DNA of 64,000 nt from Pseudomonadales bacterium (GTDB taxonomy: Bacteria > Pseudomonadota > Gammaproteobacteria > Pseudomonadales > JAHRWD01): assembly GCA_029210125.1 (NCBI GenBank), contig JARGPR010000004.1, forward strand, positions 124,001-188,000, written 5' to 3'. Under the pieces are notes generated by a model that saw only the letters and a list, made by a program, of their open reading frames with translations, was not told where the DNA came from and made no database searches. The translations under genes were made by a program, and so were the position numbers. Below, piece by piece: positions 11,871 to 35,628 of the stretch (position 1 is its first letter; each line of letters opens with the position of its first letter).

Positions 11871-12458
11871 TCATGCTGGATGACCTCGTCGCCCCTGCGG
11901 GTTGGAGGTTGAAATATGCTCGGTGCCCGGTTGGATTTGATCTTGAAAATTTGCAACGATTTTTAATGGTTCAAAATCAGCCTTGTTGAGTGCGGTTCGT
12001 AGCGATTGCCCACAGGGTAGTATGAGATCGTTTGTAAGCTCAGCTAAGGGGATGACCACAAAATTTCGGTTTAGCATCTCGGGGTGGGGAATCTGTAGTC
12101 GTTCCGATAGAATTTGCTGATCGCCAAATAATAAAATATCGAGATCAAGCGTCCGGGATTGCCAGCGTTTATGGGAACGAGTGCGGCCCTGCTGTTGCTC
12201 AATCTGCTGTAATTCGTCAAGTAACCGCTCGGCGTTTAATTGGGTGTGGATTTCCGCAACTGCGTTAATGTAATTGGGTTGGTTTGGTTTGGCTGCGGCG
12301 CTGCTGCTGCGTAACGGCTCGCTGATATAAAAGCCAGAAACCTTTTTGCGGCTGCATTGAGGGATCTTGCCCAGTTGCTCGCAGGCGCGCTGGATTTGTT
12401 GCACAGGGTCATTCAGATTGCTACCCAGGCCGATAAAGCTGCGAGTCCAGGTTTTCAT
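11871..12458 (-). CDS. folK: 2-amino-4-hydroxy-6-hydroxymethyldihydropteridine pyrophosphokinase
   Basis: HPPK transfers pyrophosphate from ATP to 6-hydroxymethyl-dihydropterin in folate synthesis. Visible hallmarks are the N-terminal FIGLGSNLNDP, the RTRSHKRWQSRTLDLDILLFGD segment with the two metal-binding Asp residues, and IPHPEMLNRNFVVIPL. The 195-residue length is a little longer than the E. coli enzyme (159) because of an extended tail. Its ATG overlaps the pcnB stop by 4 bp (ATGA), so translation is coupled. pcnB-folK-panB is the Pseudomonas order. Confidence 0.95.
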   Translation of the reverse strand: MKTWTRSFIGLGSNLNDPVQQIQRACEQLGKIPQCSRKKVSGFYISEPLRSSSAAAKPNQPNYINAVAEIHTQLNAERLLDELQQIEQQQGRTRSHKRWQSRTLDLDILLFGDQQILSERLQIPHPEMLNRNFVVIPLAELTNDLILPCGQSLRTALNKADFEPLKIVANFQDQIQPGTEHISTSNPQGRRGHPA

Positions 12459-13783
12459 GGGCTGTTGCCATTTTTGGGTTTTCGGCGCCGCGGTTTTGAA
12501 CGCTTTCGTTTATTGCCGGGCAGAGCATCAATTAACGAGTCCCGCCCCTCTCTATTAGCATCCTGAAAGTCTGTCCACCAGCTTCCAGCTTGATCAAGTT
12601 GTTCGCCGGATTGTTCCCGCAGCAGTAAAAAATCATAGGCGGCTCGGAATCTGGGGTGTTCAAGCAGCGGAAAAATACGGTTTTTACGGCGTTGAATCAG
12701 TCTTGGCTGCAGCTCCCATATTTCACGAATATTCTGGGTGAAACGGCGCGGGATGGAAACATAGGTTTGTTGGGCGGCGATAGCGGCCTGTGAAGCCTTT
12801 TGAAGCGCAGGTATTGGCGGCTCGCCGTCACCGAGCAGCTGCTGGTAACGCTGACTGGCCTGAGGCCATAACAAAACAGAAAATAGAAAAGCGGGCACTA
12901 CAGGTTTGCCCTGCTCCACTCGGTTGTCGCTATTGATCAGTGCCTGACTAATGAATAGCTGCAGCGATTCGCTGCTGCGAATCTGTACATCAGCTTCGGG
13001 AAACATTGCTTCAAATAATCCATATTGAAGCATCATGTGGTAGGTTTCATGGCCATAACCCGCCAAAAATAGTTTGTTCACCTCTTCAAACAGTCGCGCA
13101 GGGGAAACATCTCGCAGTAATCTCGCATTTTCTTTAATAGGGGCTGCTGTATCCGGATCCAGTTGAAAGGCTAATTTTGATGCAAGTCGGATTGCACGAA
13201 TCATGCGTACCGGGTCTTCTCGGTATCGCTGTAGCGGATCACCAATTATTTTTAGCTTACGTTGCTTTAGATCTTCAAGTCCGCCGGTATAGTCGACCAG
13301 GCTGAAATCTTTGATATCGTAGTACAGTGCATTTACTGTGAAATCTCTTCGGAAGGCATCTTCTTCAATAGAGCCAAACTGATTGTCCCGGATGATTTGG
13401 CCGGTCGAACCAAGCTGGAATAGATCCTTCCCAGACTGCTTTGGTTTGGTTTCGCTAGCGGCCCTAAAGGTGGAAACCTCAATGATTTCACGGCCGTCGC
13501 GAACATGTACGATCTGAAAGCGCCGACCAATTATCCTGGAGCGTTTAAAAAGGCCGTGGATCTGTTCCGGAGTGGCATCGGTAGCCACATCGAAGTCCTT
13601 GGGTTTGATGTCAAGTAATGGGTCGCGAACGCCTCCCCCAACTAATAGTGCGCGATAGCCCGCATCGGATAAGCGTTGCAGTACTTTTAATGCTGCGGAG
13701 CTCAGTATGCTGCGTGAGAGCGTATGCTCGTTTCTAGGAATGACGTGCTGTAAATCGCTAGGGGATTCGGATTTGGAAACCAA
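12455..13783 (-). CDS. pcnB: Poly(A) polymerase I
   Basis: PcnB adds 3' poly(A) tails that mark RNAs for decay. The 442-residue protein carries the class II nucleotidyltransferase head, LVGGGVRD at 47-54 and DFDVAT at 63-68 with the two catalytic Asp residues, then the RRDFTVNALYYD motif and the RNA-binding domain; the C-terminus is very basic (KRKRSKPRRRKPKN), as usual. The frame opens only after a TGA 17 bases upstream, and the first usable codon is TTG 13783, which has no clear ribosome site, so the start is less sure. It lies immediately downstream of the CrcZ-like RNA, as in Pseudomonas. Confidence 0.94.
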   Translation of the reverse strand: MVSKSESPSDLQHVIPRNEHTLSRSILSSAALKVLQRLSDAGYRALLVGGGVRDPLLDIKPKDFDVATDATPEQIHGLFKRSRIIGRRFQIVHVRDGREIIEVSTFRAASETKPKQSGKDLFQLGSTGQIIRDNQFGSIEEDAFRRDFTVNALYYDIKDFSLVDYTGGLEDLKQRKLKIIGDPLQRYREDPVRMIRAIRLASKLAFQLDPDTAAPIKENARLLRDVSPARLFEEVNKLFLAGYGHETYHMMLQYGLFEAMFPEADVQIRSSESLQLFISQALINSDNRVEQGKPVVPAFLFSVLLWPQASQRYQQLLGDGEPPIPALQKASQAAIAAQQTYVSIPRRFTQNIREIWELQPRLIQRRKNRIFPLLEHPRFRAAYDFLLLREQSGEQLDQAGSWWTDFQDANREGRDSLIDALPGNKRKRSKPRRRKPKNGNSP

Positions 13784-13867
13784 AATAGGGAGGCAAGATC
13801 AGTAAGTTAGGGGCTGGAAGGTTTTATATAAATGAGGAGTGATTCTAGCGGATAGAAACCATAACGG

Positions 13868-14078
13868 AAAGAGGCGAGTATGTGTTTGCATACTCGCCTC
13901 TTATTTACACCGGAATACTATTTGCTGCTTTAATACCCAATTATTATTTTTAATTGACTGGGTTATGTAAGTTACAAATCCTTCCCAACAGTTTTCGGCT
14001 CAGATATATACGTTTTTATTATTATTGATCCGTTTGCCCTATTTTTATTATTTATTGTTTTTATTATTTTTTGTAGCG
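13868..14078 (-). ncRNA. crcZ: CrcZ-type small RNA (candidate)
   Basis: In Pseudomonas, CrcZ lies between cbrB and pcnB, is transcribed from a sigma-54 promoter activated by CbrB, and sequesters Hfq/Crc through A-rich AANAANAA motifs, relieving catabolite repression. All of these parts are visible here on the minus strand: correct flanking genes, a -24/-12 promoter at 14087-14105, three A-rich tracts (within 14038-14074, 14011-14027 and 13938-13955; for example AATAATAATAAAAAC) and a 12-bp terminator hairpin at 13871-13900. The predicted length is about 210 nt, shorter than the roughly 400 nt of P. aeruginosa CrcZ. The ends are predicted from the promoter and hairpin, not measured. Confidence 0.82.
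13871..13900 (-). terminator. Terminator of the CrcZ-like RNA
   Basis: GAGGCGAGTATG, 6-base loop, CATACTCGCCTC: a perfect 12-bp stem. On the minus strand it is followed by TTTCC, a short U tract. No annotated coding gene ends nearby on either strand, so the hairpin must close a non-coding transcript; it lies about 90 bases before pcnB. Confidence 0.85.
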
Positions 14079-14086
14079 CGTTATAT

Positions 14087-14105
14087 ATAGCGGCTATCGT
14101 GCCAA
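14087..14105 (-). promoter_or_regulatory. Sigma-54 (-24/-12) promoter for the CrcZ-like RNA
   Basis: The minus strand reads TTGGCACGATAGCCGCTAT. The invariant GG (14103-14102) and GC (14091-14090) are exactly 10 bases apart, and TTGGCACG matches the -24 consensus perfectly; the -12 element CCGCT is weaker than TTGCA/T. The start of transcription would fall near 14078. CbrB, encoded just upstream, is a sigma-54 activator. Confidence 0.82.
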
Positions 14106-14163
14106 TTCTTGTATTCTTATATAAAACAATTAGTTGGGGAAATGCAGGGTGTATTCTGGTTAG

Positions 14164-14227
14164 GGTGTTACCAGAATAGTGTTACCTTTCTACACAATAG
14201 TAATGGCTATTTGTTACTGGTAACACC
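14164..14227. promoter_or_regulatory. Probable CbrB upstream activating sites
   Basis: Four copies of one hexamer are packed into about 60 bp: TGTTAC at 14166-14171, 14180-14185 and 14212-14217, and its complement GTAACA at 14220-14225. Two lie within a perfect 11-bp inverted repeat (GGTGTTACCAG / CTGGTAACACC). I recall TGTTAC/GTAACA half-sites as the CbrB recognition element at Pseudomonas crc RNA promoters. They lie 60-125 bp upstream of the -24 element, the usual enhancer distance. Confidence 0.75.
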
Positions 14228-14349
14228 AGGGATGTTTTTTAGGATGGAATCTATTGGTGTAGCTGGGGAGCGACGGGCGTGTGACTATTTCGACTTAATG
14301 AGTTCTTTTTATAATACGAATATTTTTTAATGATAGGTGGGCAAAGTGG

Positions 14350-15696
14350 TTAGCGCTGGCGGTTGCGGGGAATACCAAAGCGTTGTCGCCGTTCCCAAAG
14401 TGATTTACGGCTGATGCCAAGTTTGCGAGCCAGCTCGGTTTCGTTCATATCCGTTTCATGTTCTGATACAAATTCAATGAAGTATTCTTCCATAGAAAGG
14501 GCCTTTGAGGCTTCTTCATTGTGGTCAGAAACCTTCAGTGAAAGATGAGTGCTGTCGATCTGGCTGTTATCTGATAGCACAATCGCACGCTCGATGGCAT
14601 TTTCGAGCTCCCTGACGTTGCCGGGCCAGCTATGCTGACAAATCGCTTTAGTGGCACGGCTGGTGAAGGTCATGGCTGGGCGATCAAATTTTTGGCGGAG
14701 TTTATCGAGGATCGCATTGGCTAGCTCAAGGGGGTCATTGTCACGATCCCGCAATGGCGGCACGAGTAGGGGCATCACATTGATACGATAGAATAGATCC
14801 TCTCGAAACTGTTTTTCCGCGACCATTTGTGCGAGATCCCGGTGGGTTGCGCTAATGAGGCGGATATTCACTTTTATTGGTTTGACTGCCCCAAGGCGTC
14901 TCACCTCACCTTCCTGTAGCACCCGCAAAAGCCGCGCTTGAGCCTCAATGGGTAATTCACCAATTTCATCGAGCAATAAGGTTCCGCCATCAGCAGCTTC
15001 AATTAAGCCACTACGGTCACTGTCTGCTCCGGTGAAAGCCCCTTTTTGGTGGCCAAACAGCTCCGATTCGATCAAAGATTCCGGGATAGCCGCACAGTTG
15101 ACGGAAACCATAGGGGCATCTTTACGTGGGCCAAGGGCATGAATTGATTTGGCTACAAGTTCCTTGCCAGTACCTGATTCACCCTGGATTAACACGGTAG
15201 TATCGGTCATGGCCACTTTACGAATGGTTTTGAAAAGCGTATTCATAGCCGAGCTACTGCCAATCATGCCGGCTAAACCATTTGTTTGTTGCGCTGATTC
15301 GGTTATATCGTTGCCATCGGGCGTCGAGCTTTGATGTTCAGTCAAAATCCGAGCAATAGTCGATAACATTTCGTTGTGATCGAAGGGTTTTGCAATGTAA
15401 TCAACCGCTCCAAGTTTCATAGAATCAACTGCTGAACGCAGGCTTGCGTAGCTGGTCATGATCAATACGGGCGTGTTTTGTGCGTGCGCTATCAGTTCCG
15501 TTCCCGGAGCGCCAGGCAAACGAAGGTCACTAACAATCATATCGAAACTATCGAGGTCGAGCTGATTAGCGTCCTCCACAGAAGCGGCTTCATCCACCTG
15601 GTAATGGTTGCGTTCCAACAGTTTTTTTAGCGCGGTGCGGATGATCTCTTCATCTTCAACGATCAGTATATGGTTCATTGTTGTTGATTGGCTCAA
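14350..15696 (-). CDS. cbrB: Sigma-54-dependent response regulator CbrB
   Basis: NtrC-class activator, 448 residues. Domains in order: receiver (phosphoacceptor Asp57 in IVSDLRLPG, conserved Lys in AKPFD), AAA+ sigma-54 interaction domain with Walker A GESGTGKE at 172-179 and the sigma-54-contacting GAFTGA at 219-224, and a C-terminal Fis-type helix-turn-helix (ETELARKLGISRKSLWERRQ). Neighbouring cbrA, cbrX-like, gluQ and pcnB identify it as CbrB, which controls use of amino acids and other poor carbon sources. Its likely targets lie just downstream, at the CrcZ promoter. P. aeruginosa CbrB is slightly longer (478). Confidence 0.93.
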   Translation of the reverse strand: MSQSTTMNHILIVEDEEIIRTALKKLLERNHYQVDEAASVEDANQLDLDSFDMIVSDLRLPGAPGTELIAHAQNTPVLIMTSYASLRSAVDSMKLGAVDYIAKPFDHNEMLSTIARILTEHQSSTPDGNDITESAQQTNGLAGMIGSSSAMNTLFKTIRKVAMTDTTVLIQGESGTGKELVAKSIHALGPRKDAPMVSVNCAAIPESLIESELFGHQKGAFTGADSDRSGLIEAADGGTLLLDEIGELPIEAQARLLRVLQEGEVRRLGAVKPIKVNIRLISATHRDLAQMVAEKQFREDLFYRINVMPLLVPPLRDRDNDPLELANAILDKLRQKFDRPAMTFTSRATKAICQHSWPGNVRELENAIERAIVLSDNSQIDSTHLSLKVSDHNEEASKALSMEEYFIEFVSEHETDMNETELARKLGISRKSLWERRQRFGIPRNRQR

Positions 15697-15784: not shown

Positions 15785-18739
15785 TTAGGTGTTGAGTGGT
15801 AAAACTACGACAATTTTAGTGCCGGTATCGTCTTCATAGAGAGGGCTATGAATTTCGATACGGCCACCGTGATTATTGACGATATTAAAGGCCACAGCCA
15901 TTCCCAGGCCGGTACCGTCACCGGGGTCCTTGGTGGTGAAGAAAGGTTCAAATATCCGGTTTTGGATGTTGGGTGCGATACCTGGCCCCTGATCGATAAT
16001 TTCGATGGAGACCGATTCATCGCTGAGTGTTTGTCGTACTTCAATCCGCTGCCCTGGCTCTGAAACGCTTAGTGCATTGGAGAGTAGGTTCACAAATACC
16101 TGCTGCAATTGGGCCGCGCTTCCCAGCACTAAATTGGCTGAGGGACAGCGATTAACTAACTTAATCTGTTTGAAATTTACGTTAAGCTGCAGCAGGTCCA
16201 TTGCTTTTTGAACGCACAAATGGAGATTGACCGGTTTGAGTTGTTTTGCGACCGGGTTGTGCCCACCATGCGCATAACCTACAAGGGTTTGAACGGTATC
16301 GCTGATCCGGCGGGTTTGGCTCAGAATTTGTTGGGTCGCCTCTAGCACATCCGGGTTATCAAATTCACTTTCGAGGTTTTGCGCAAGGCAGGCAATGCCA
16401 GTAACCGGGTTGCCAATTTCATGGGCGATACCTGCGGCAAAACGGCCAATCGAGGCCAGTCGTTCGCTGTGAAGTAATTGCTGCTCAAGGTTTCGGGTAT
16501 CGGTTCGTTCTTCTAATAACAAAACCAGACCGCCGACTTCGTTGGATGCGTATTCGGCAATGTTGGATTTATGCAGACTAACCCAACGATTTTCCTCCTC
16601 AAAACTGATTTCTTGCTGAGGCCGATGGGTATTTGGGTCTGCGAGAAAATCGAGTAATACGGAGCGCCACGGTTCCGCCAGGGCAGCCAGGTCTGAGCCG
16701 ATCACATCGGCAGAGCCGATGCCGGTCATTGACTCCATTGCTTTGTTCCACATCAGGATTTCCTTGTCCGCTCCCAGGGAGCACACGCCAATGGGCAACG
16801 TCCATAGGGTTTGCCGATGGTAGCGGCGTAGATTGTCTAGCTCCGCCGTAAGCCCGGTCAGGTCATTTTTGAAATCTTCCAGGCGGCTTTCAATAAAGTG
16901 GATATCTTCAATGTCGTACTCCTGGCCGGAATCTTTATAGGGTAACGCTCTCGAAATCATTGAGCGTGCCATCGAAGCACCGACCCGACCGGAAAGATTA
17001 ATCTCGATTTGATCCCGCAGGCGACGTAATGCATAGGGGCGTTTTTCACCGATATTGATATCGATCTCCCGCATCCCCTGGTAGACCTCTTTGATAGCAC
17101 TTTTCTCTCCCAGTGCGATGGACAGTTGCTCAATGAAACGCTCCGGAGAATCAAGAGTCAACTCGCGTCGTTGGGGCTTTCGGATACTATCGACTGAACA
17201 AACTTCAGCGGCATTTTTTTCATCTGGGCGAGCTTTAGAGACTGAAGATACCAGGGCAAATAGAAGGATATTGATGCTAAGTGAAGCAACTGCAACTAGC
17301 GACCAGCTGTCCTCATCAAGGTGTAAACCAAGGTCTGGAAAAAGCAGCGAAAAATCCTGTAGATCCGCAACTAACGGAAGCAACATCCCGGCAAACCAGA
17401 TGCTGTACCCTGCTATCAGACCACTGATAAAACCATTGCGGTTTGCTGCAGGCCAATATAAAACTCCCAGCAAACCGGGCAATAACTGCAACGTTGCGAT
17501 GAATGCCACCAGGCTCAGGTTGGATAGATCCTGCAGCCCGCTTAGCTGGCTATGGAGGGCATAGGCTCCCAAAATGATCAGTACTATCAGCCAGCGCTGG
17601 GCACTCAGTATCCATCGATACAAATTATCCCGGTTGGCAGGCTGATAATAGGGAAGTACCAAATGATTCAGGCAGATAGAGGATAATGCAACCGTGGTTG
17701 CAATCATCAAGCCGCTGGCGGCTGCAATGCAACCAATTAGTGCCGCGATGGTCAGGGATGGTGACTGTAGAGCGATGCCCAGACCAAGTGTGTAATACTC
17801 TGGTTGGGTTTCGATATTGACCAGATTGGCGCTCCACAGAATCGGTAACACCGGCAGGCTCATTAATAACAGATAAAGCGGAAAACCCCAGCTGGCGGTT
17901 TTCATGGCGGATAGATCTGTGTTTTCGGTGAAAGCCATTTGAAACATGTGGGGCATCACCACTGCAGCGGAGAAAAAGACCAGTAGCAATATTCTCGATG
18001 AATATTGTTGCAGTGGGTAGTGCAGGGTTGCGGTTAAATCAGGATTTTGCGAAACCCACTGATCAAGGTTTTCGATACCATCGAAAACCTGAAACACGAC
18101 GACAAGACCGATAAACCCGAACGCGATCAGTTTGACCAGTGAATTAAAGGCAATTGCAGTAATCATGCCTTGATGTGATTCCCGCTGGGAGTTACGGCGG
18201 GCGCCAAACAATAGCGTAAACACAACGATCAATAAGCAGAAAAATGTAGCTAGCTGATCCTGGGTAAACTGGCGAGAACTCTCGTCAGAGGATGTACCAA
18301 GGGTAATGATATGCACGATATCCGTCACCGCCTGGATCTGTAATGCCAGCAGCGGTAGTAATCCTGTTAGCAACAGGATGGCGGTTAATACACCTGCGCC
18401 GGTACTGCGATACCGAAATGAAAACAGGTCAGCCAGTGAATTTAGCTGATATGAGCGGGTAATACCTAACAGTGGTGTTAGTAAAATTGGAGCTAATAAG
18501 AACGCCCCACTGATACCCAGGTAGTAAAACAGAAAACTGTAACCGTACTGATTTGCAAACCCTACCGACCCAAATAGTGCCCATGCACTGGCGTACACCC
18601 CCAAAGACAATACATATACGGCAGGATGTCGACTGATTTTTTTTGGAATCAAGCTTTTGTCGGTGGCGTATGCGACGCCAAACAAAAGTGCCAGATAACC
18701 TGCGACCAGCAGTGCTACATAGCTCAGATCAAGATTCAT
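15785..18739 (-). CDS. cbrA: Sensor histidine kinase CbrA (transporter-like N-terminus)
   Basis: CbrA is a membrane kinase of 984 residues, close to the 983 of Pseudomonas. The first 510 or so residues form about 13 transmembrane helices of the sodium/solute symporter (SSS) fold; a linker (STAC-like) and a PAS domain (about 640-740) follow, then the HisKA domain with phosphorylated His773 in IAHEIGNPVTG and a C-terminal ATPase domain with N, G1 (DQGPGIAP) and G2 (GDGTGLGMAVA) boxes. The Pseudomonas protein transports histidine and signals to CbrB. The start overlaps the end of the CbrX-like gene by 11 bp, so its translation is probably coupled. Confidence 0.94.
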   Translation of the reverse strand: MNLDLSYVALLVAGYLALLFGVAYATDKSLIPKKISRHPAVYVLSLGVYASAWALFGSVGFANQYGYSFLFYYLGISGAFLLAPILLTPLLGITRSYQLNSLADLFSFRYRSTGAGVLTAILLLTGLLPLLALQIQAVTDIVHIITLGTSSDESSRQFTQDQLATFFCLLIVVFTLLFGARRNSQRESHQGMITAIAFNSLVKLIAFGFIGLVVVFQVFDGIENLDQWVSQNPDLTATLHYPLQQYSSRILLLVFFSAAVVMPHMFQMAFTENTDLSAMKTASWGFPLYLLLMSLPVLPILWSANLVNIETQPEYYTLGLGIALQSPSLTIAALIGCIAAASGLMIATTVALSSICLNHLVLPYYQPANRDNLYRWILSAQRWLIVLIILGAYALHSQLSGLQDLSNLSLVAFIATLQLLPGLLGVLYWPAANRNGFISGLIAGYSIWFAGMLLPLVADLQDFSLLFPDLGLHLDEDSWSLVAVASLSINILLFALVSSVSKARPDEKNAAEVCSVDSIRKPQRRELTLDSPERFIEQLSIALGEKSAIKEVYQGMREIDINIGEKRPYALRRLRDQIEINLSGRVGASMARSMISRALPYKDSGQEYDIEDIHFIESRLEDFKNDLTGLTAELDNLRRYHRQTLWTLPIGVCSLGADKEILMWNKAMESMTGIGSADVIGSDLAALAEPWRSVLLDFLADPNTHRPQQEISFEEENRWVSLHKSNIAEYASNEVGGLVLLLEERTDTRNLEQQLLHSERLASIGRFAAGIAHEIGNPVTGIACLAQNLESEFDNPDVLEATQQILSQTRRISDTVQTLVGYAHGGHNPVAKQLKPVNLHLCVQKAMDLLQLNVNFKQIKLVNRCPSANLVLGSAAQLQQVFVNLLSNALSVSEPGQRIEVRQTLSDESVSIEIIDQGPGIAPNIQNRIFEPFFTTKDPGDGTGLGMAVAFNIVNNHGGRIEIHSPLYEDDTGTKIVVVLPLNT

Positions 18740-22868: not shown

Positions 22869-23320
22869 GTCGGCATCCTCAGCACTACAGAGGATGGACA
22901 GCAGGGTACGTCATCCTGATTGAGGATCTGCACATCCACCTCCACCAGCTTTTCGTTGTCCTGTTCGTATTTGCGGGTAACCTTCCCGTTAATATGGATG
23001 GTATCCCCCGCCGCAATCGAAACCTGCATATGAATTTTACGCTTACGGATAAATGCCTCGGGGCCAGACCAGTCGCTTACATATCTGTCCACTAATCCCT
23101 GTAAAAACATGGTGTTAAGGTAGATATCCTTCACTTTCTGTTTTTTTGCGTATTCCGGATTATGGTGGCCGGGGAAGAAATCCCGGGTGGCGGCCACATC
23201 CTGAATCACTCGCCGATAGCTGACGGGCATCTCCAGTTTGGGTAACTCATCACCTTCTGAAACCTCATCCCAAACCCGGGATAGATACTCACGATTGTAC
23301 TTTCCGATAGCGGTGTTCAT
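22865..23320 (-). CDS. MaoC-type hot-dog acyl dehydratase/hydratase subunit
   Basis: A 151-residue hot-dog protein of the MaoC group, with the family pattern FFPGHHNPEYA near residues 49-59 (the hydratase D/H region) and a long central helix. It overlaps the preceding minus-strand MaoC-like gene by 4 bp (ATGA), a pairing typical of heterodimeric (R)-enoyl-CoA hydratases such as ChsH1/ChsH2 of steroid breakdown. The substrate is unknown. The next gene downstream is the Rieske protein, overlapping by 4 bp. Confidence 0.78.
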   Translation of the reverse strand: MNTAIGKYNREYLSRVWDEVSEGDELPKLEMPVSYRRVIQDVAATRDFFPGHHNPEYAKKQKVKDIYLNTMFLQGLVDRYVSDWSGPEAFIRKRKIHMQVSIAAGDTIHINGKVTRKYEQDNEKLVEVDVQILNQDDVPCCPSSVVLRMPT

Positions 23321-23856
23321 GAGCCTGTCTCCCCGTGTGGAATGTAGCGGAACATGGTGTTGGTGTTGGTAGCTACTTTTTCTCCAGCGCCACAGCGATA
23401 AGTGGTGCGGGTGACCACAAAATGGCCGATCCCAAGCTTGGTTTTTTTCTCGGGGCTGATGCTGATCACCTCATTTTCAGAGTTCAGAATCTCCCCTATT
23501 TTCATATGACGAAAAAACTCTGATTCGGTAGATACATTGATCAGCGTGGTGCCGGGTAGCGGAAGATCAAAAGTGGAGGAGTCATCCCCCTCTTCCCGCA
23601 TCGGGTTCCAGTCGGTTGTCAGGCCCCAAACCATCAACATGCCCGGTGGCGATACAATGCTACCCCAGGCGTTATTGGCGTACTGCTCATCCCAGTAGCT
23701 GGGGTTGGCGTCCTCAACCGATGCGGCATAAAACTGGATCATCGCCCGGTTGACATCAATCTCATTAAATTTAGTGGAGGACTTTTTACCAATCCAGGCA
23801 ATTGCCTCCTCAAAGGTGCCGGTGGTCACATCGGCGCCGGTAGCTTCTGTACTCAT
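23317..23856 (-). CDS. MaoC-like dehydratase partner subunit (FAS1-type N-terminal hot-dog)
   Basis: A 179-residue protein with an N-terminal-type MaoC hot-dog fold: YAASVEDANPSYWDEQYA, SPPGMLMVW, then the strand-rich second half (GTTLINVSTESEFFRHMKIGEIL). Such proteins typically pair with a catalytic MaoC subunit, which the overlapping downstream gene provides. It heads a three-gene operon (this gene, MaoC, Rieske). The (R)-specific hydratase activity is inferred from the family, and the acyl chain it acts on is not known. Confidence 0.78.
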   Translation of the reverse strand: MSTEATGADVTTGTFEEAIAWIGKKSSTKFNEIDVNRAMIQFYAASVEDANPSYWDEQYANNAWGSIVSPPGMLMVWGLTTDWNPMREEGDDSSTFDLPLPGTTLINVSTESEFFRHMKIGEILNSENEVISISPEKKTKLGIGHFVVTRTTYRCGAGEKVATNTNTMFRYIPHGETGS

Positions 23857-27728: not shown

Positions 27729-28045
27729 ATCCATGCTCCCTGTTGTTATTTTATTGTGCGAGTGTGTTCGGAGTGATCAGTGAAACTCGATTAATCGCCT
27801 ACGATCTGACGGTTTACTGAATCTGTTTCATTACAATATGAGACACCGCTCTATAAGGCAAACTTGGATGGATATTGTGGATGGTCAGAATTTTAACGGT
27901 AGCAAGTTTCTTGATTTTGTAGATCAATCACGGTATTGATAAGGGAGATCAAGTTTTATAGATGGATCGCTTATTCAGTTCCAGCAAGCACACAATAATA
28001 AAAATGGAGATGGTTAGAGCTATGCAGTCAAAATTTGAGGGAAAA

Positions 28046-29236
28046 ATGGATCCGCCACTTAAAGGTATTAAAGTGCTCGATTTTGGCCAGGTTTATCAGG
28101 GGCCATACGCGACTTACCTAATGGCGCAGGCCGGTGCCGATGTCATTAAAATTGAAGCGCCAACAGGTGAACCGCTGAGGCAAAGAGAGGTCCGTGGCGG
28201 CCCTTCGGTATTTCAGATGGGTATGCTGAATGCCAACAAGAGAGCGATCACCATTGACCTGAAAACGGAACAAGGTAAGCAGTTACTGCGGGATCTGGTT
28301 TCGCATGTGGACATCCTGTTGGAGAATTTCACTCCGGGGGTGATGGATAGATTAGGTGTGGGCGCGGCATCGTTGCAGGAAATTAATCCGCGATTGATCT
28401 ATGCATCCGGAACCGGATACGGGCTCTCCGGCCCAGATAAAGATGCAATGGCGATGGATATTACCGTTCAGGCGATGTCCGGCATCATGAGTGTAACCGG
28501 TTTTGACGGCGGGCCTCCGGTACGGGTTGGCCCGGCAATCGCCGATTTTATGGGAGGCATTCACCTATATTCTGCGGTAATGACCGCGCTTTACGAACGC
28601 GAACGTACAGGCATTGGGCGTTTGGTAGAGGTTTCAATGCTGGAGTCCGTCTACCCGACCTTGGCCTCTGGTTTGGGTGCGATGCATGATAACGGTGGTG
28701 AGATACCGCCCCGCCCTGGCAACCGGGGTGCGCTCAATACTGCGCCCTACAGTGTATTCGAAGCGGCAGATGGCCACATCTCAATATTTTGTTTGAAAGA
28801 AAATCACTGGAATAACCTCTGTAACGCAATGGGTAAACCGGAGTTGATAGAGGACAGCCGCTTTGCGACCAGTGAGGCACGGGCGCAAAACCTTGAGTTG
28901 ACGGAACAGGTAGTAACTTCCTGGTCCAGCCAGCTACCTAAGGATGAGGTGTTCCGGTTGTTGTGCGAGCATCGCGTGCCTGCCGCACCGGTAAGAACCA
29001 TGAAAGAGGTGAGTAGCAGCGAGCATATGCTGGCACGGGGCAGCTTACAGAAACTTGATCACCCTGATCTGGGTGAAGTTACCCTGCCAACCAGTCCGTT
29101 GCGTTATCACGGAACCCCACAAACTCAGCTAACAGCAAGCCCCCGTTTGGGTCAGCATAACCAAGAGGTTCTGTCTGAGTTGCTGGATCTGTCATCGGAT
29201 CAGATTGATCAACTGCATGCGGATGGAGCGATCTGA
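28046..29236 (+). CDS. CaiB/BaiF-type CoA-transferase (family III)
   Basis: A formyl-CoA transferase-type enzyme moving CoA between acids. Conserved features: PLKGIKVLDFGQVYQGP, the catalytic-Asp region (MDITVQAMSGIMSVTG, the Asp of MDI aligning with the family nucleophile), and the FCLKENHWNNLCNAMG region. The frame opens at 27962, but family sequence begins at the Met of MDPPLKGIKVLDF (28046), which has GAGG 5 bases upstream; the upstream Mets lack a good site. The gene is divergent from the acyl-CoA dehydrogenase gene and probably activates or recycles a CoA ester of the same pathway. Confidence 0.87.
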   Translation: MDPPLKGIKVLDFGQVYQGPYATYLMAQAGADVIKIEAPTGEPLRQREVRGGPSVFQMGMLNANKRAITIDLKTEQGKQLLRDLVSHVDILLENFTPGVMDRLGVGAASLQEINPRLIYASGTGYGLSGPDKDAMAMDITVQAMSGIMSVTGFDGGPPVRVGPAIADFMGGIHLYSAVMTALYERERTGIGRLVEVSMLESVYPTLASGLGAMHDNGGEIPPRPGNRGALNTAPYSVFEAADGHISIFCLKENHWNNLCNAMGKPELIEDSRFATSEARAQNLELTEQVVTSWSSQLPKDEVFRLLCEHRVPAAPVRTMKEVSSSEHMLARGSLQKLDHPDLGEVTLPTSPLRYHGTPQTQLTASPRLGQHNQEVLSELLDLSSDQIDQLHADGAI

Positions 29237-34689: not shown

Positions 34690-35628
34690 ATGAAATTCCT
34701 CACAACCAAAAAAATTATGTTCGGCGTGGTGCTAGCGACGGTACTGTATTTAGCCATTATTTTAATTGCCCCCCTATTGGTGCCACTGCCGGATACCAGA
34801 AAACCGGTGGCGCCGATCCCCGCGGAATTAAAGATCACTAACGAGCGTGTGACCTTTCCCTCTGCTCAGTCCGATCTCAACCTTGTCGCCTGGTGGATGC
34901 CAAACCCGGAGCCTAAAGCAGTGGTGGTTTTGGTCCACGGCCACGGCGGTCAGCGGACAATGGAAGTTTTTGGCGGCATGCAGCTTGCCAAAAATATGTT
35001 AGATGCAGGATACGCAGTGCTATCGGTTGATCTGCGTGGCCATGGCGAAAGTGACGATGCACCGGGCGGAAAATTAGAACCAGCGAATTTGGTATTCGAT
35101 GTGATGGGGGCAATCGATTGGGTGAAACAAAAACATCCCGAGCTTGCCGTCGGAGTAATTGGAGCATCCCTCGGCGGGGCGACCATTGTGATGGCAGGTG
35201 TGCAGGATAAACGAATCGAAGCGGTGATTGCAGTAGCACCGGCGCTGGAACCCGAGGCCAGTATTGAACGTTATCTGGTCCATGTAATGTCGTTGCCAAA
35301 ATCTGTAGCACGGCATCTCGCATGGTCGATGGTTAACGTGCATGGCCAACTGGGTAGCGTTGATCCACTGGAGGTAGGCGCACAACTTGATGGATCAAAA
35401 CTGTTTTTAATTCACAATGAAGCAGACCCGATTAACCCGGTTTCTGGCTCGCGTAAATTAAAAGCGATATTGCCAGCCGCTCAACTTTGGATTACACCAC
35501 CCGCTCCGGATAATCCAGTTGTCCTGGCGCGGGGTGCATGGGGTAGCCATGTACGTTCCTATTTGCTGCACCCAAAGGAATTTGCAGAAAAAACTGTGGA
35601 ATTCTTGGATGCACGATTGACTAAATAA
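34690..35628 (+). CDS. Membrane-anchored alpha/beta hydrolase
   Basis: A 312-residue alpha/beta hydrolase. Residues 7-32 form a membrane helix or uncleaved signal anchor. The HGHGG oxyanion region is at 83-87, the nucleophile elbow GASLGG has Ser160, the acid is likely in HNEADPIN and the His in GSHVRSY. The fold suits esterase or peptidase activity, and the substrate is unknown. It is divergent from the class C-like hydrolase gene; the two share a 169-bp control region. Confidence 0.84.
   Translation: MKFLTTKKIMFGVVLATVLYLAIILIAPLLVPLPDTRKPVAPIPAELKITNERVTFPSAQSDLNLVAWWMPNPEPKAVVVLVHGHGGQRTMEVFGGMQLAKNMLDAGYAVLSVDLRGHGESDDAPGGKLEPANLVFDVMGAIDWVKQKHPELAVGVIGASLGGATIVMAGVQDKRIEAVIAVAPALEPEASIERYLVHVMSLPKSVARHLAWSMVNVHGQLGSVDPLEVGAQLDGSKLFLIHNEADPINPVSGSRKLKAILPAAQLWITPPAPDNPVVLARGAWGSHVRSYLLHPKEFAEKTVEFLDARLTK

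Follow-up and report, generated by a model that had tools for sequence, protein, structure and literature searches.

A predicted CrcZ-type decoy RNA downstream of cbrB in a Pseudomonadales bacterium and in other families of its order

On the minus strand of the window (the whole 64,000-nucleotide stretch of Pseudomonadales DNA analyzed here), 3′ of cbrB and before pcnB, the sequence reads as a predicted non-coding RNA of 211 nt (13868–14078). We consider it highly likely that this RNA is a CrcZ-type decoy that would act in a CbrAB-Hfq/Crc circuit to relieve catabolite repression; very probably the CbrA/CbrB carbon sensor turns it on, and it would serve to soak up Hfq/Crc, the repressor that keeps less favored nutrients from being used. 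CbrA, CbrB, Hfq, and a Crc that appears nuclease-dead are all encoded in the same genome, and the arrangement of a sigma-54 promoter followed by ARN tracts recurs downstream of cbrB in 27 sampled families of the order.

The cbrB-pcnB interval and its predicted RNA

By our reading of the translations, the genes run dksA-gluQ-cbrA-cbrB-RNA-pcnB-folK, with panB and panC further on, as in P. aeruginosa PA4723-PA4730. Three of the protein-coding genes around the RNA lie on the minus strand: cbrA (15785–18739), cbrB (14350–15696), and pcnB, the conserved downstream neighbor encoding poly(A) polymerase (12455–13783; TIGR01942, E 3.9e-149, above cut-off). An earlier note on this DNA had described a complete CbrAB-CrcZ locus whose elements all lie between the cbrB and pcnB genes on the minus strand, and on direct reading its coordinates hold and the gluQ-to-folK order is kept.

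The −24/−12 sigma-54 promoter TTGGCACGATAGCCGCT (14089–14105, minus strand) has the exact GG-N10-GC spacing that the note had reported, and scoring matches it to the consensus at 11 of 13 positions. With the −12 GC at 14091-14090, the predicted +1 is 14078, and the distance from there to the far end of the terminator is the 211 nt given above, in agreement with the roughly 210 nt proposed before. Upstream of the promoter, on the same strand, are four exact copies of the TGTTAC/GTAACA CbrB subsite (PMC6296734): a forward half-site TGTTAC at −147 (14220–14225) and reverse half-sites GTAACA at −139 (14212–14217), −107 (14180–14185), and −93 (14166–14171). They lie 61-120 bp from the promoter element, inside the 60-125 bp range claimed for them. 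As predicted sites, promoter and subsites are thus both present. Their spacing is F-8-R-32-R-14-R, and the commonest pattern across the order is F-21-R-22-R, with starts near −147, −126, and −104. Over 34 promoters, exact half-sites occur at 2.5 per 170 bp against 0.10 expected by chance, and across the families of the order they cluster at −100 to −150. An IHF-like site, CAACTAATTGTTT (14124–14136, minus strand; 8 of 9 consensus positions), precedes the promoter element by 31 bp; in many other genomes from the order, too, the best IHF-like match occurs at this same fixed distance.

Between 14071 and 13941 the RNA contains four ARN (AANAANAA) tracts, all scored on the minus strand: AAAAATAATAAAAACAATAA (14052–14071), AATAAAAA (14042–14049), AATAATAATAAAAA (14013–14026), and AAAAATAATAA (13941–13951), the last of which overlaps a predicted hairpin on folding. 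The A-rich tracts of the earlier note are therefore real, but they number four, not three. Its 12-bp terminator also needs a qualification: the intrinsic terminator (13868–13900, minus strand), which was read, scored, and folded, has a perfect 12-bp GC-rich stem (13900-13871) and a 6-nt loop, but the stem is followed by TTT only (a UUU tail in the RNA), and a simple terminator scan does not list this hairpin because its U-tract is weak. Several ARN tracts lie within what is predicted to be a terminated non-coding RNA with a short U-tract. The fold of the RNA has a z-score of −5.18 relative to shuffles, and much of this signal is probably due to the terminator hairpin.

The genome of the window (G000) was compared with the sole same-genus genome in the comparison, G001, where all promoter and RNA elements are also found: 15 of 17 promoter bases are the same, all four half-sites are kept, and their spacing is nearly the same. 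Identity over the RNA is 92% of aligned positions, against DNA identities of 72% for cbrB and 73% for pcnB; the spacer that precedes the promoter has 53%, and the sequence past the terminator 61%. Identity climbs near the promoter and drops near the hairpin. Single-nucleotide indels occur inside the otherwise near-identical RNA region, and because they fall within the conserved part, we discount a coding function for the region. The terminator loop (13888-13883) seems to be inverted between the two genomes (CAAACA versus TGTTTA), with the stem nearly kept.

Protein partners, candidate targets, and likeness to CrcZ

Pfam detects PAS, HisKA, and HATPase_c domains in CbrA and no transporter domain; the N-terminal 606 amino acids, however, match a solved chain named histidine kinase (10ed_A, E 2.6e-198) that spans this part of the protein and that we take, from the CbrA-transceptor preprint (PMC13022988), to be CbrA. 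The protein thus has a transporter-like N-terminus fused to a histidine kinase and is encoded next to cbrB. CbrB has the Response_reg, Sigma54_activat, and AAA lid domains of an NtrC-type response regulator that activates sigma-54 promoters, with HTH_8 slightly under the cut-off. Relative to the Pseudomonas-like genome G020, CbrA is 53% and CbrB about 60% identical. Hfq scores above the curated cut-off with PF17209 (103 bits) and reaches 141 bits with PRK00395.

Naming Crc from family models alone was tried and dropped: the NCBIfam label of this protein is exodeoxyribonuclease III, and we therefore relied on catalytic residues and synteny. The Crc homolog is encoded between pyrE and rph, as crc is in G020 and in Pseudomonas. 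Its best match among solved structures is P. aeruginosa Crc (4jg3). It has an ExoIII-like fold in which the catalytic motifs are changed to IQGT, GDFQ, and SSHL, so that, judged by these residues, it is nuclease-dead. K139, R140, R141, E142, and E193 are kept, as is the basic patch with R140 and E142 (RNKRRE); R196, R229, R230, and R233 are not conserved, and these are variable in many other genomes of the order as well. R140 and E142 matter for formation of the Hfq/Crc/RNA complex in P. aeruginosa (PMC6422490).

To look for candidate targets, 861 kb of the genome of the window with 781 predicted genes was scanned for translation starts covered by an ARN run of 11 nt or more. Such runs were found in 18 of the 781 genes (shuffle mean 7.6, maximum 13), and by our own sorting of Pfam assignments, catabolism and uptake account for 13 of these 18, compared with 3 of 20 random genes. 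They encode, among others, an acyl-CoA ligase-like protein, an acyl-CoA dehydrogenase, an enoyl-CoA hydratase, two family III CoA-transferases, an alcohol dehydrogenase, a flavin monooxygenase-like protein, a limonene-epoxide-hydrolase-like protein, and an MFS transporter. Since the sorting is our own and the gene starts are predictions, we treat the enrichment as supporting and not decisive. Within the window, ARN tracts over the start codons make a CoA-transferase gene (28022-29236), an alpha/beta hydrolase gene (34690-35628), and a dehydratase-like gene (23317-23856) candidate Hfq/Crc targets.

The CrcZ of P. aeruginosa and P. putida (RF01675) shares with the predicted RNA its position between cbrB and pcnB, a sigma-54 promoter, TGTTAC/GTAACA subsites, and several A-rich Hfq motifs. 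The differences are in length (211 nt here, 407 nt for CrcZ; PMC4063720), in a rearranged subsite spacing, and in the lack of a significant covariance match. The covariance search with the CrcZ model that the earlier note had called for did not recognize the RNA body: RF01675 has no match at the gathering cut-off in the window, nor at E ≤ 0.001 in the genome, and at a permissive threshold the locus reaches 13.2 bits against a gathering cut-off of 95, which within the sample is passed only in G020 (306.8 bits) and G002. We have therefore filed the RNA as CrcZ-type by position, architecture, synteny, and circuit, not by sequence. CrcY and CrcX, which are located elsewhere in the genome in Pseudomonas and Azotobacter, belong to the same class of CbrB-activated Hfq/Crc decoys; by contrast, the promoter-plus-ARN pattern search finds one convincing copy only in the genome of the window. 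In P. aeruginosa, the 407-nt CrcZ has six A-rich stretches and titrates Hfq, and a 151-nt fragment of it with three stretches binds Hfq (PMC4063720), so an RNA of 211 nt with four tracts should be long enough.

From the elements, their conservation and recurrence, and the protein partners, we infer transcription, activation by CbrB, binding of Hfq/Crc, and a physiological effect along the following lines. When the preferred carbon source is exhausted, CbrA would signal to CbrB, which would occupy the four half-sites and, with IHF bending the DNA, activate the sigma-54 promoter. The four ARN tracts of the transcript would then load Hfq via its distal face, together with Crc, and draw Hfq/Crc off the A-rich translation-initiation regions of catabolic mRNAs, so that catabolite repression is relieved. 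That the circuit known from Pseudomonas also operates here, as the earlier note had proposed, gains credence from the predicted promoter and half-sites, the full set of protein partners, and the 27 families with the same architecture.

Recurrence across the order and alternative explanations

CbrA was detected in 31 of 37 genomes, nearly all of which represent different families of the order. We collected 35 regions downstream of cbrB, 33 that their handles place in the order and two from public metagenome-assembled genomes (L003 and L005) whose membership is presumed, and scored as the architecture any sigma-54 element that is followed immediately by two or more ARN tracts. It is complete in 30 of the 35, comprising 27 families, G001, and the two public loci, but in none of the 35 reverse strands of the same regions, and shuffles give a mean of 0.04; it is also absent from all 26 controls that encode CbrAB, of which nearly all come from beyond the order. 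Among the five negatives, G006, G013, and G021 still have tracts, and in two of these three the promoter is a near miss; the other two, G017 (L306) and G036 (L202), encode CbrAB with no sign of a CrcZ-type RNA after cbrB and are also without nuclease-dead Crc. A plain pattern search for a promoter plus tract found matches in 173 of 245 genomes of the order versus 31 of 226 other genomes of the class, and the latter look like background. In a search of contigs with CbrB, the matches beyond the first five loci were mostly unrelated NtrC-family proteins.

Nuclease-dead Crc is present in many genomes of the order. In several, the best Crc match is a paralog with an intact active site and the second copy is the nuclease-dead Crc; seven sampled cases have two copies, of which the nuclease-dead one is the second. 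In G016 and G034 the RNA occurs with no recognizable Crc, which indicates that Crc is not always in the circuit.

The chance that the promoter-like and A-rich matches are mere by-products of an intergenic spacer that is indeed AT-rich is negligible, and the controls refute it in practice: promoter and at least two tracts came up in 1 of 5000 dinucleotide shuffles of the cbrB-pcnB gap, and while the 64 kb contain 22 promoter-like matches, only this locus has more than one tract after the promoter. The empty reverse strands, the sharing of the architecture by 27 families, and the clustering of half-sites at −100 to −150 speak the same way. The architecture is not due to chance. The sigma-54 transcript could instead be a regulated leader at the 5′ end of the pcnB message, in which the hairpin works as an attenuator, given that pcnB is next on the same strand and the weak U-tract makes read-through plausible. 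We regard this as very unlikely, because the RNA region persists where pcnB is not found downstream: G028, G033, and G034 keep the architecture with no pcnB in the stretches taken downstream. Several families, moreover, have two tandem copies, G013 has further copies elsewhere in its genome, and conservation falls away once the hairpin is passed.

Almost as doubtful is a base-pairing sRNA under CbrB control, in which the ARN tracts only recruit Hfq and the conserved middle (about 14012-13952) is the active part. Between G000 and G001 that middle is conserved at about 97% identity, which the linkers of a decoy would not need, and the fold is strong; yet other families share the tracts and promoter with no common middle obvious by eye, and the number of tracts suits a decoy. 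The decoy explanation, which we prefer, is itself weakened by the U-tract of three T only, the half-site spacing unlike the commonest pattern, the missing Rfam CrcZ match, and the non-conserved R196, R229, R230, and R233 of Crc.

Beyond the order, and variation within it

CbrAB and CrcZ have been described as exclusive to Pseudomonadaceae, or to Pseudomonas and Azotobacter (PMC8871633, PMC6296734). In literature on CrcZ and Halomonas, Marinobacter, Alcanivorax, Cellvibrio, or Pseudomonadales, judged by titles, abstracts, and term counts and with few subscription papers included, we found no report of the system outside that family. Since 27 of the families sampled from the order have this type of locus and CbrAB is also found beyond the order, the statement that CbrAB is unique to Pseudomonadaceae is, on these genomes, too narrow. 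The earlier note's placement of the locus outside typical Pseudomonas was correct in itself and understated its spread, as the locus type is order-wide. Most of these loci fall under the Rfam model cut-off, and their occurrence across 27 families would make Hfq-decoy catabolite repression testable in many other bacteria and provide natural minimal versions of the decoy.

Among 274 sampled genomes of the class, CbrA-like proteins were found in 27 beyond the order. These are 37-45% identical to CbrA and, in those examined, have cbrB downstream. The 26 controls consist of 24 of these genomes and the public loci L004 and L002 (Natronospirillum), of which L004 probably duplicates one of the 24 and L002 may lie inside or outside the order; none of them has the promoter-plus-tract architecture or a detectable pcnB after cbrB. 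The systems outside the order differ, then, in having no pcnB found downstream and no ARN-tract RNA, and the best Crc homologs of the sampled genomes, many near pyrE, keep the ExoIII catalytic residues. This combination of CbrAB without the RNA and with nuclease-intact Crc homologs, seen in a comparison of presence, absence, and residues, suggests that the Crc/CrcZ arm came after CbrAB and was added, at the level of the order, to a sensor that already existed. The implied order of events would be the sensor first, followed by loss of Crc nuclease activity and gain of the RNA. We lean slightly toward a single origin near the base of the order, in which nuclease-dead Crc and a CrcZ-type RNA were added to a CbrAB sensor and an active ExoIII near pyrE that were both older. 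In later diversification the RNAs would have come to range from about 110 to more than 400 nt and to occur in tandem, some lineages would have lost CbrA or Crc but kept the RNA, and Pseudomonas CrcZ would be one long derivative.

Several loci (L118, L121, L123, L126, L132, L142, L240, and L321) carry a very short RNA subtype of about 100-120 nt, found in at least eight families, in which a conserved GAGACCUGGRUGGGG terminator module comes after the last tract. At L321 (G012:C79:4500-10500) the order is gluQ-cbrB-CrcZ-type RNA-pcnB-folK with cbrA absent from the locus, and CbrA was not found anywhere in the G012 genome at the cut-off used, so this is apparently an orphan CbrB with the RNA retained. 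L118 (G030), L121 (G029), L137 (G005), and L127 (G011) each carry a pair of CrcZ-type units in tandem, and every unit has a sigma-54 promoter, half-sites, and tracts of its own; related f13 genomes carry several units.
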